From Kiritimatiellia bacterium (lineage in GTDB: Bacteria; Verrucomicrobiota; Kiritimatiellia; SLAD01), in the NCBI GenBank assembly GCA_007136425.1, contig SLGY01000072.1, positions 1 to 42,642 on the forward strand: DNA of 42,642 nucleotides. The letters run 5' to 3'. The notes under the pieces were generated by a model. The model ran no database searches. It had not been told where the DNA came from and worked only from the letters and a program-made list of their open reading frames with translations. The translations under genes were made by a program, and so were the position numbers. This document shows positions 7,966-10,553 of the stretch, piece after piece. How positions within the stretch are numbered: position 1 is the first letter of the stretch; each line of letters begins with the position of its first letter.

Positions 7966-7994
7966 ATCATACCCCCTTTCCGAAATGCGATCAA
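7966..7994 (-). promoter_or_regulatory. Predicted promoter giving a leaderless mRNA for the DUF2007-like gene
   Basis: Minus strand: TTGATC, 17-nt spacer, TATGAT, then 6 nt to the ATG at 7959. The -35 box overlaps the murC stop codon. A GGGGG tract lies in the spacer and would not be part of the transcript if initiation is at the ATG. Confidence 0.5.
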
Positions 7995-9388
7995 ATGGAA
8001 GCGAGCCGGGCCGCCAGGCGACGGGCGAACTGCGGCAACTCCGGGTCGCGCGCACCCATACACACGACCGCGTCACCGGGTCGTCCGCTCTCAAGTACGG
8101 CGCTCAGGAATGCGTCATAGCCCGATATCCACGTGGCCGGCACGCGATGCTCCTTTAAACGCTCAACAAACATCTCGGCGTCCACTCGTTTTTCCGCCGT
8201 ACCGCCCTCGTAGTACACCGGCGGGATATATAGCCGATCCCCAGGCCGGCATACTTCCTGAAACATCGTACAGAGATCCTCCATCATGGCGGATAACGGC
8301 CCGTACCCGTGCGGACGCCAGAAACCGATAACCCGTTCGGCCTGTTCGGCCACCGCATTCCATGTCGCGCGAATCTTGGCGGGATTATGCGCATAATCAT
8401 CGTACACCGCAACGTCACCTCCTTCGTCGACCCGTTCGAGACGGCGTTCGACGCCCTGGAAACGCGACAGCGTCTCAACAATTGCTTCCCGCTCATACCC
8501 GAGCGCCTCGCACAGGGTAATCGCCAGCTGCGCATTCTCCCGGTTATGCGCGCCAGGCAAAGGCAAGGGATGCGTCCATTCGCAGGCGGGCGGCGCTTCC
8601 CGACATACGGCGCGCAGGTCATTGCGACCCGCAAAAAGCGAGCCGAGACCCGCGCCGCAAATCAACGTTCGTTCCACCTGTTGCACAAACAGTTCGAACA
8701 ACGCGGTGGTCTCTTCCAACGTAAAGTGATCGCGCGAGATGTTCGTAATCACGGCATGCTCGGGAAAGAAACGAAGCAGCGAACGGTCGCTTTCATCCAC
8801 TTCAACCACCCATAGATCGGACGCGCCCATCCGGACATTGCCGATGCAGTCCGTCGACTTCCAATTCAACACGGCCGCGCCGTTGACGACATGGGGGTCC
8901 GCACCCAGTTCCGACAACAGCCAACCAATCATTCCGGTGACGGTGGTCTTGCCGGACGTGCCGGCGACGGCGATGCAGTGTTCCCCGCCGATCAGTGCCG
9001 ACAACATTTCACTCCGATGCCGAACCGGTACGGATCGCCGGCGCGCGGCCTCCAAATCCGGATTATCCTGTTCGATGGCGGTACTGACGACCAGCGCGCC
9101 CGTTTCCGGCGTGACGCCCGATCCGTCCTGCGTGTACAGGGCGATCTCCTGCCGCTGCAACGCATCCAACACAGGCGCGGATAGATTTGTGTCCGTCAAG
9201 CGATCCGATCCGGTTACGCGATATCCGCGTGCACGCAACACTTGCGCCAACGCATTCATTCCAACGCCGGCAATGCCGACCATATGCACGCTTGATCCGG
9301 GCGGCGGCAATGCCATCCCGGAGCCACGCTCTTCCTGTTGAGCGTCCGCAAGGCAAAGCCGGGATTCTTGTTCGCGCTTCGTGTTCAT
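7991..9388 (-). CDS. murC: MurC-type Mur ligase (UDP-N-acetylmuramate--L-alanine ligase or close relative)
   Basis: A 465-residue three-domain Mur ligase. The N-terminal UDP-binding Rossmann fold has SSVHMVGIAGVGMNALAQVL, which is specific to the MurC/Mpl branch. The ATP loop is GTSGKTT (about 143-149), followed by VEVDESDRSLL and an HNREN segment. The C-terminal domain has DDYAHNPAKI. MurC adds L-alanine to UDP-MurNAc in the cytoplasm. Two details are odd: MurC normally reads GTHGKTT, and DDYAHNP is closer to MurE, MurF and Mpl. The gene stands alone, away from any division and cell wall cluster. AGGGGA precedes the ATG at 9388; a start at residue 25 (MALPPPG) is also possible. Confidence 0.82.
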   Translation of the reverse strand: MNTKREQESRLCLADAQQEERGSGMALPPPGSSVHMVGIAGVGMNALAQVLRARGYRVTGSDRLTDTNLSAPVLDALQRQEIALYTQDGSGVTPETGALVVSTAIEQDNPDLEAARRRSVPVRHRSEMLSALIGGEHCIAVAGTSGKTTVTGMIGWLLSELGADPHVVNGAAVLNWKSTDCIGNVRMGASDLWVVEVDESDRSLLRFFPEHAVITNISRDHFTLEETTALFELFVQQVERTLICGAGLGSLFAGRNDLRAVCREAPPACEWTHPLPLPGAHNRENAQLAITLCEALGYEREAIVETLSRFQGVERRLERVDEGGDVAVYDDYAHNPAKIRATWNAVAEQAERVIGFWRPHGYGPLSAMMEDLCTMFQEVCRPGDRLYIPPVYYEGGTAEKRVDAEMFVERLKEHRVPATWISGYDAFLSAVLESGRPGDAVVCMGARDPELPQFARRLAARLASI

Positions 9389-9452
9389 TCATTATTTCCC
9401 CTGGGAGTACGAGAGCATGACAAGGAGCGGGCCGTCGTGACAAGCCCATCGT

Positions 9453-9462
9453 ATGCCCCGTT
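9453..9462. repeat. Left copy of target site duplication flanking the MITE-like element
   Basis: ATGCCCCGTT, repeated exactly at 9719-9728 on the other side of the element. The match extends one further base (C), so the duplication is 10 or 11 bp. Confidence 0.75.
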
Positions 9463-9718
9463 CGGGGCAGACGCATCTAAATTGTTATGTGCTTGCCCGC
9501 AAGGACCGAATGACGAAAGACCCAAATACCTAAGGAAATCCGAATTTCAAAATCCGAAATCCAGATCATCGGACGTTTCTTCGATGTTCGGCCTGAACGG
9601 CCATAGGTTACGAATACACGTTTAGTACGGCTTGCATATTCGGACTTCGGACTTCTTTCGGGCTTGGGTGTTTGGGTATTTAGTCATTTATAACTCGATT
9701 TTAGATGCGTCTGCCCTG
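9463..9718. mobile_element. MITE-like non-autonomous element (256 bp) with inverted terminal repeats
   Basis: The left end reads CGGGGCAGACGCATCTAAA; the right end, reverse complemented, reads CAGGGCAGACGCATCTAAA, so 18 of 19 bases match. Inside the ends both arms carry related blocks: AATGAC-AAA-ACCCAAA-ACC and then CCGAA-rich stretches, so each arm is inverted-repeat-like for about 100 bp. A 10-11 bp direct repeat flanks the element. It contains no credible gene. It fills most of the 418-bp gap between the divergent murC and ankyrin lipoprotein genes. A transposase that recognises these ends must act in trans; the duplication length would suit some IS4-group enzymes, but that is inference. 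Confidence 0.75.
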
Positions 9719-9728
9719 ATGCCCCGTT
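9719..9728. repeat. Right copy of target site duplication flanking the MITE-like element
   Basis: ATGCCCCGTT, identical to 9453-9462. Confidence 0.75.
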
Positions 9729-9741
9729 CATTCCTGTGCGG

Positions 9742-9770
9742 TTGTACTTCTGCGGATCGCATGATAGACT
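9742..9770 (+). promoter_or_regulatory. Predicted promoter for the ankyrin lipoprotein gene
   Basis: TTGTAC, 17-nt spacer, TAGACT, with 36 nt to the ATG at 9807. It begins 13 bp beyond the target duplication, so the element insertion left it intact. The leader has no strong Shine-Dalgarno sequence. Confidence 0.5.
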
Positions 9771-9806
9771 CCCGGCAATCTACAACTTTGAGAAAGTGAT
9801 CAAGTA

Positions 9807-10553
9807 ATGCAGCGTATAATTATTGCGATAAGTTGCTTATTCCTGTTAACCGCCTGCGAAGTGCGTATAGAGGACGACGCCCTTCCAGCGCCCACACCGG
9901 AATTGCCCGACATACATGAGGCCGTGCTGGATAGCGACATGAACGCCTTGCGGCGTCATTATCAGGCGGGCGGGGATTTTAATGCCCGGAATGAACAGGG
10001 TTTGACTCCGCTGCATCTGGCGATTGCGTTAGATGATCGAGACCTTGTCCGGCAACTCCTCGACTGGGGCGCGGATCCCGATGTGACGGATGAACACGGC
10101 TCATCGCCGCTGCACATGGCGGCAAGTCGCGACCTGCGCCATGCCACCCACCTCTTGATCCGTGGCGGCGCCGGGATTGAGGCCCGTGATGGAAAGGGAC
10201 ATACGCCGGCGGAAATCGCCCATTACATGGACCACACGGAGGTGGTCGACTTCCTGATCGCCGCGGGCGCCGACGACCCTCGCGAGCGCGAGGCGCCGGA
10301 AGAAAGGCCCGCCGTATCTCCCAGTCCGGACGTTCTGGCGGAATTACGGACGCCCACGCCCCCGAGCGAGGAGTATCAGACCTGGACAAGCATCGGACGC
10401 GAAGAAGTTTCTGCGCAATTTCTCGGAATAACGAATGATATGGTCGTATTACGCACACCGGATGACCAGACGATCCGTGTTCCCGTGCCGCATTTGCAGG
10501 AGGCCGACCGCGAAAGGGCGATGACGATGCGCAGCCAGCGCGCACTGGAATAA
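9807..10553 (+). CDS. Ankyrin-repeat lipoprotein with C-terminal SHD1-like domain
   Basis: A 248-residue exported protein. The signal peptide ends in a lipobox LTAC with Cys17. Residues about 35-155 hold ankyrin repeats, visible as NARNEQGLTPLHLAIALDD, VTDEHGSSPLHMAASRD and EARDGKGHTPAEIAHYMD. After a proline- and acid-rich linker, residues about 190-240 (YQTWTSIGREEVSAQFLG then VVLRTPDDQTIRVPVPHL) resemble the SLA1 homology 1 (SHD1) domain common in planctomycete and verrucomicrobial exported proteins. It would face the periplasm and bind partners. The gene at 25044-26261 has the same module order with a phospholipase-D domain added, so the two are paralogous. It ends 4 bp from the convergent formyltransferase gene. 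Confidence 0.82.
   Translation: MQRIIIAISCLFLLTACEVRIEDDALPAPTPELPDIHEAVLDSDMNALRRHYQAGGDFNARNEQGLTPLHLAIALDDRDLVRQLLDWGADPDVTDEHGSSPLHMAASRDLRHATHLLIRGGAGIEARDGKGHTPAEIAHYMDHTEVVDFLIAAGADDPREREAPEERPAVSPSPDVLAELRTPTPPSEEYQTWTSIGREEVSAQFLGITNDMVVLRTPDDQTIRVPVPHLQEADRERAMTMRSQRALE

Follow-up and report, generated by a model that had tools for sequence, protein, structure and literature searches.

The window analysed here is the whole stretch of 42,642 nucleotides, contig C226 of a Kiritimatiellia genome of 2.60 Mb (226 contigs, 89.1% complete). Between two divergent genes it contains a short segment with inverted ends and a sequence repeated at both borders, which raises the question of what this segment is and which enzyme moved it. 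Our analysis indicates that it is very probably a MITE with ends that ISAs1-family DDE transposases recognise, a reading drawn from sequence comparison.

Results

Architecture and fold of the element

The element itself spans 9463–9718 and measures 256 bp (Table 1); the first-pass annotation had given 9453–9728, which counts in both target duplications. An inverted-repeat search returns arms at 9462–9481 and 9700–9719, 20 nt long and 95% complementary (19/20), in agreement with the 18/19 inverted ends annotated earlier, and a scan of the window for the 17-mer end, allowing up to 3 mismatches, gives two sites where 0.10 would be expected. The 10-mer ATGCCCCGTT, likewise annotated as a target duplication, is read directly and without a change at 9453–9462 and 9719–9728, and the chance of an identical 10-mer on both borders is about one in a million. 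Inside the ends lies a second layer of inverted similarity, between element positions ~46–98 and 177–229, which extends the arms to ~100 bp in total, the length first proposed. The Mur ligase gene on the minus strand and the ankyrin-repeat gene on the plus strand diverge from each other with the element between them, and the ankyrin-repeat protein has a lipoprotein-like start as read from the sequence. The element thus has the size and coding status of a MITE (under ~600 bp, with no transposase gene in the list of open reading frames) together with terminal inverted repeats and a target-site duplication. The window genome holds it in full length at four unrelated sites, and autonomous elements share its ends, so that the earlier description of the element as MITE-like and non-autonomous holds.

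Folded as RNA, the element reaches –105.7 kcal/mol, compared with –66.5 ± 4.6 kcal/mol for 200 shuffled sequences (z –8.6). This very stable fold, and the conservation of the arms between genera, would also suit a fixed intergenic repeat, such as a termination or RNA-processing hairpin, that merely resembles a transposon. However, the copies lie at different places with different duplications, Rfam gives no match to the element up to E 1, and no terminator-like or promoter-like site is found in 9380–9810; we therefore regard a fixed repeat as very improbable.

Table 1. Coordinates of the element, its parts, its neighbours and the related type B and type C elements. Plain positions refer to the window
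Feature	Position	Strand	Basis or remarks
Target-site duplication, left copy, ATGCCCCGTT	9453–9462		Read directly; 10 bp is usual with such ends
MITE with ISAs1-type ends, no transposase gene, 256 bp	9463–9718		Four full-length genome copies; alignment
Left terminal inverted repeat, CGGGGCAGACGCATCTAAAT	9463–9482	+	Inverted-repeat search; full-length ISAs1 elements end in the same 18–19 bp
Left internal hairpin arm (element 46–98), AATGACGAA..ACCCAA..CCGAA type	9508–9560	+	91% conservation between genera; also in types B and C
Right internal hairpin arm (element 177–229)	9639–9691	–	91% conservation between genera; pairs with left arm in consensus fold
Right terminal inverted repeat, reverse complement CAGGGCAGACGCATCTAAAA	9699–9718	–	Inverted-repeat search
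Target-site duplication, right copy	9719–9728		Read directly
Flanking gene, Mur ligase	7991–9388	–	Pfam PF01225/PF08245/PF02875; element 74 bp upstream of start; context
Flanking gene, ankyrin-repeat protein	9807–10553	+	Pfam PF12796; element 88 bp upstream; context
Type B element, 285 bp	L297 77–361 (G000:C54)		Ends CAGCGCATATTC/CAGGGCTGATTC; exact 9-bp duplication CATAATCTT
Type C element, 642 bp	L324:128–769 (G000:C136)		Perfect 18-nt ends GGGCGCATATCACTTCTG; exact 9-bp duplication GTGCGCGTC
Type C element, second copy	L323:1306–1947 (G007:C303)		Exact 9-bp duplication TAACGGCAA

The ends recur in other genomes and go with a 10-bp target duplication

The first-pass annotation had proposed a search for the ends in the rest of the genome and in relatives. 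Besides the four copies in its own genome, the 18-nt end (up to 2 mismatches) is found in 27 of 97 genomes, that of the window included, and a genome collection contains its exact form in at least 113 stretches. By our own estimate ~7 chance matches are expected in that collection, so that lone end hits in distant phyla are not trustworthy singly. We extracted 66 distinct two-ended elements of 41–2,599 bp, allowing up to 3 mismatches in 19 at the ends, and requiring 14 bp of flank on both sides; those truncated at the end of a contig were left out. With the flanks compared at offset 10, 21 of these elements match exactly and 30 within one mismatch. Offsets 6–9 and 11–14 never give more than 3 of 66, and re-paired flanks gave 0 of 12,990. 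The other 36 elements have no 10-bp duplication within one mismatch; the copy on contig C138, with its left end one base short, falls out of register by one and is scored as a miss in this count.

The sequences enclosed by these ends are highly diverse. By interior, fifty small elements (91–600 bp) form 30 clusters, of which 23 have a single member; ISAs1-type ends therefore enclose at least 30 unrelated interiors, and many of these passengers share only ~20 bp. Four of the 66 elements are shorter than 90 bp and consist of almost nothing other than two ISAs1 ends. One of 56 bp (L161:3679–3734) has an exact 10-bp duplication, and three of 47 bp (L152:1649–1695, L180:6626–6672 and L193:745–791) have duplications matching at 9, 8 and 2 of 10 positions, respectively. 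Such elements may be among the smallest mobile elements.

Long elements with these ends mostly encode ISAs1 transposases

Twelve of the 66 elements exceed 1 kb, and 11 of them, including L069 (= L089), L090 (= G072:C9) and L225, carry an ISAs1 transposase, as does L092, an element at a contig end that lies outside the 12. The transposases between these ends score up to 422 bits with the ISAs1 model NF033564 (cut-off 70), and exact 10-bp duplications flank the full-length ISAs1 elements L143, L069, L209 and L225. The target duplications of the ISAs1 family range from 8 to 10 bp in ISfinder. A full-length insertion sequence with the same ends, another of the searches first proposed, is thus present in relatives, and the 11 of 12 long elements assign the ends to the ISAs1 system rather than to IS4. 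The element of the window shares the ends and the 10-bp duplication of the ISAs1 elements with this end type and encodes no ISAs1 transposase; it is at most ISAs1-mobilised, and not itself an ISAs1 insertion sequence.

The earlier attribution to the IS4 group is not upheld by these data. That an enzyme of the IS4 family (IS4, IS10 and IS231 groups) moves the element would fit the length of the duplication, which lies within the range of that group. It would also fit the protein fold, as the IS4 family belongs to the DDE_Tnp_1 fold family PF01609, and the ISAs1-type transposases between these ends carry PF01609 too. However, every typed full-length element with these ends is ISAs1 except one of the IS1634 family, none of the cognate elements encodes an IS4 transposase, and IS4 models score the same transposases at only 20.7–25 bits against a cut-off of 115. 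We consider the involvement of an IS4-family enzyme extremely improbable and reject the attribution.

The single exception, L094:1708–4081 (G051:C15), encloses an IS1634-family transposase between ISAs1-type ends, lacks a clean duplication and is perhaps a nested insertion or an end exchange. At seven other loci (L282, L124, L113, L134, L115, L122 and L138, in the relatives G002, G035, G027, G023, G041, G038 and G054) the end of the DDE domain of an ISAs1-type transposase lies in another frame. In six of the seven the frames overlap and contain homopolymer runs such as C6T4, T4C6, T7C3 and A7G5, a hint of possible programmed frameshifting. In L282 and L113, the two loci searched with Pfam, the ISAs1-type transposase is fused to a Druantia DruA-like domain (PF14236).

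Helper and descent of the element

The six frames of the window genome contain no PF01609 (DDE_Tnp_1) domain, no NF033564 (ISAs1) match and no relative of the G072 transposase. Among 17 other end-bearing genomes, seven have some ISAs1 match and four a match above the cut-off. The assemblies are incomplete and copies of insertion sequences tend to collapse in them, so that an absent helper looks the same as an unassembled one. With no ISAs1 gene found in this incomplete genome, mobilisation in trans by a resident gene is something that we infer. Comparison with the 12 long elements reveals that only the ends are common, and homology stops ~21 bp from each end; descent by internal deletion from any of the 12 therefore finds no support beyond ~21 bp. 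Given that only the outer ~20 bp are common with full-length insertion sequences and that at least 30 unrelated interiors exist, the element is no visible deletion derivative. The original designation as a non-autonomous derivative mobilised in trans is thus right as to non-autonomy and half right as to 'derivative'.

Copies of the element and its mobility

The window genome holds four full-length copies with differing flanks, each with its own flanking repeat. The copies on C138 and C128 are 97% identical to the window copy and that on C66 94%. The duplication of the window copy is exact over 10 bp, as is that of the C138 copy (ACAAGGCCGC), whose left end is one base shorter; the C128 duplication matches at 9 of 10 positions and the C66 duplication is imperfect (8/10). 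Two genomes of another genus hold copies 80–86% identical, one with the exact duplication TCCGGGGATT. A search of plasmids with the MITE gave no match.

In the same-genus genome G002, the Mur ligase and ankyrin genes are present with other sequence between them and without the element. Joined flanks of the window element align to G002 with a score of 53, where 200 shuffles reach no more than 45; this margin is too small to identify the single target copy. An empty site, as first suggested for a check, is thus found at the level of the neighbouring genes, but the exact target site has diverged too far for a single ATGCCCCGTT to be recognised.

These observations bear on whether the element is an old, dead insertion, once mobile and now only inherited, a reading that concerns present activity and is compatible with an ISAs1-mobilised MITE. 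No transposase was found in the window genome and the C66 and C128 duplications have decayed, as such an insertion would lead one to expect. The exact window and C138 duplications, copies 94–97% like the window copy, and the absence of the element between the same genes in G002 speak against it. We hold a dead insertion to be a real possibility, somewhat short of an even chance.

The C138 copy (L002:1490–1790 = G000:C138:18126–18426) has a further peculiarity. After its right duplication the first 17 bases of the left end occur again, including the private G-to-A change of that left end, and together they form a 27-bp direct repeat, which a single insertion does not explain.

Conserved inner arms recur in elements with other ends

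Two inner arms of ~53 nt each, pairing with each other, lie inside the ends of the window element. Eight copies from three genomes were aligned, one of them without its first 14 bases. Between the four copies of the window genome and the four others, identity is 0.91 in each arm, 0.91–0.93 in the ends and 0.66 in the centre, and 20 of 106 columns vary in the arms as compared with 41 of 78 in the centre (Fisher p 3e-6, a guide only, as columns are not independent of descent). Both-sided changes occur in just 5 of 76 pairs and the covariation term is slightly unfavourable; with so few, the data show a conserved sequence and do not prove an RNA structure.

The arms are also present in two other types of mobile element of the window genome, here called B and C. 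Among ten arm-bearing loci tried, five have ends and a duplication (the window, two of type B and two of type C), and the other five, which gave no clean ends by script, were read by eye. A general hairpin of IVP genes is rejected as an account of the interior: in 30 IVP loci, a subset of the 63 IVP matches listed, the arms occur at two, both copies of one mobile element.

Type B elements have the end sequence CAGGGCTGATTCGTGTATACACGCAA, unlike the ends of the window element. Their ends lie near the edges of several contigs (C54, C138, C147, C192, C201 and C210), as expected of a high-copy repeat, and type B is apparently a second MITE family of high copy number that seems to interrupt the assembly. 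The two type C copies are 95% identical, and they occur in two genera with unrelated flanks and different duplications. Their product matches the 23S rRNA IVP family PF05635 (36.7 bits, cut-off 33.8), and as RNA the ends and arms pair around the open reading frame. Of the differences between the two copies, 13 are in synonymous codons and 8 in others; this pattern suggests that the function of the IVP gene is maintained. A plasmid search with type C gave no match, and the single viral match to its end, an isolated 18-mer accompanied by neither a second end nor an IVP, is most likely due to chance.

Discussion

We propose that an ISAs1 transposase, supplied in trans, would bind the ~20-bp ends of the window element, excise the element and insert it where the target is cut with a 10-bp stagger; repair of the gaps would then produce the ATGCCCCGTT duplication. 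The inner arms are as conserved as the ends, and may for this reason matter for the spread or maintenance of the element. In kind, the element is an ordinary ISAs1-mobilised MITE; its details are new and its inner cassette is unusual. It is part of a clear case in which many unrelated passengers carry the ends of the ISAs1 transposase family and have only ~20 bp in common.

A bolder reading, which we think unlikely on present evidence but state for what it would imply, is that the hairpin is a functional cassette reused in three end types (A, ISAs1; B, CAGGGCTGATTC; C, GGGCGCATATCAC), with ends and interiors swapped as modules. In type C this cassette would enclose a selected 23S rRNA IVP gene and move between genera by transposition, and such elements would be living relatives of the suspected mobile ancestor of 23S rRNA intervening sequences. 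Were the arms a shared cassette, they would reveal what a non-autonomous element requires internally in addition to its ends. Transposition as the origin of rRNA intervening sequences is an old hypothesis, according to PMC4990558, and the 642-bp IVP-carrying element makes this proposal testable.

Several known systems can be compared with these elements. In the literature searched on ISAs1 ends and duplications, MITEs and Kiritimatiellae, which includes PMC11578231, PMC3281130 and PMC5756416 as partial texts, we found no account of ISAs1-ended MITEs. The 23S rRNA intervening sequences with an S23/IVP open reading frame, as described in an excerpt of PMC4990558, resemble type C only, in the long stem around an IVP open reading frame; type C differs by its terminal inverted repeats and target duplications. 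MITEPye1 of Paracoccus yeei, which has IS1182-type ends, is, in the portion of PMC11578231 consulted, likewise small, non-coding, of low copy number and built as a long stem-loop with the ends of an autonomous insertion sequence, whereas it belongs with another IS family, and the inner arms of the window element also occur in elements with different ends. Types B and C share those inner arms and differ from the window element in their ends and in their 9-bp duplications. ISAs1-family insertion sequences themselves (NF033564; PF13808 and PF01609) have the same 18–19 bp ends and, in the four full-length elements named above, the exact 10-bp duplication, while the window element has no transposase and an unrelated interior.
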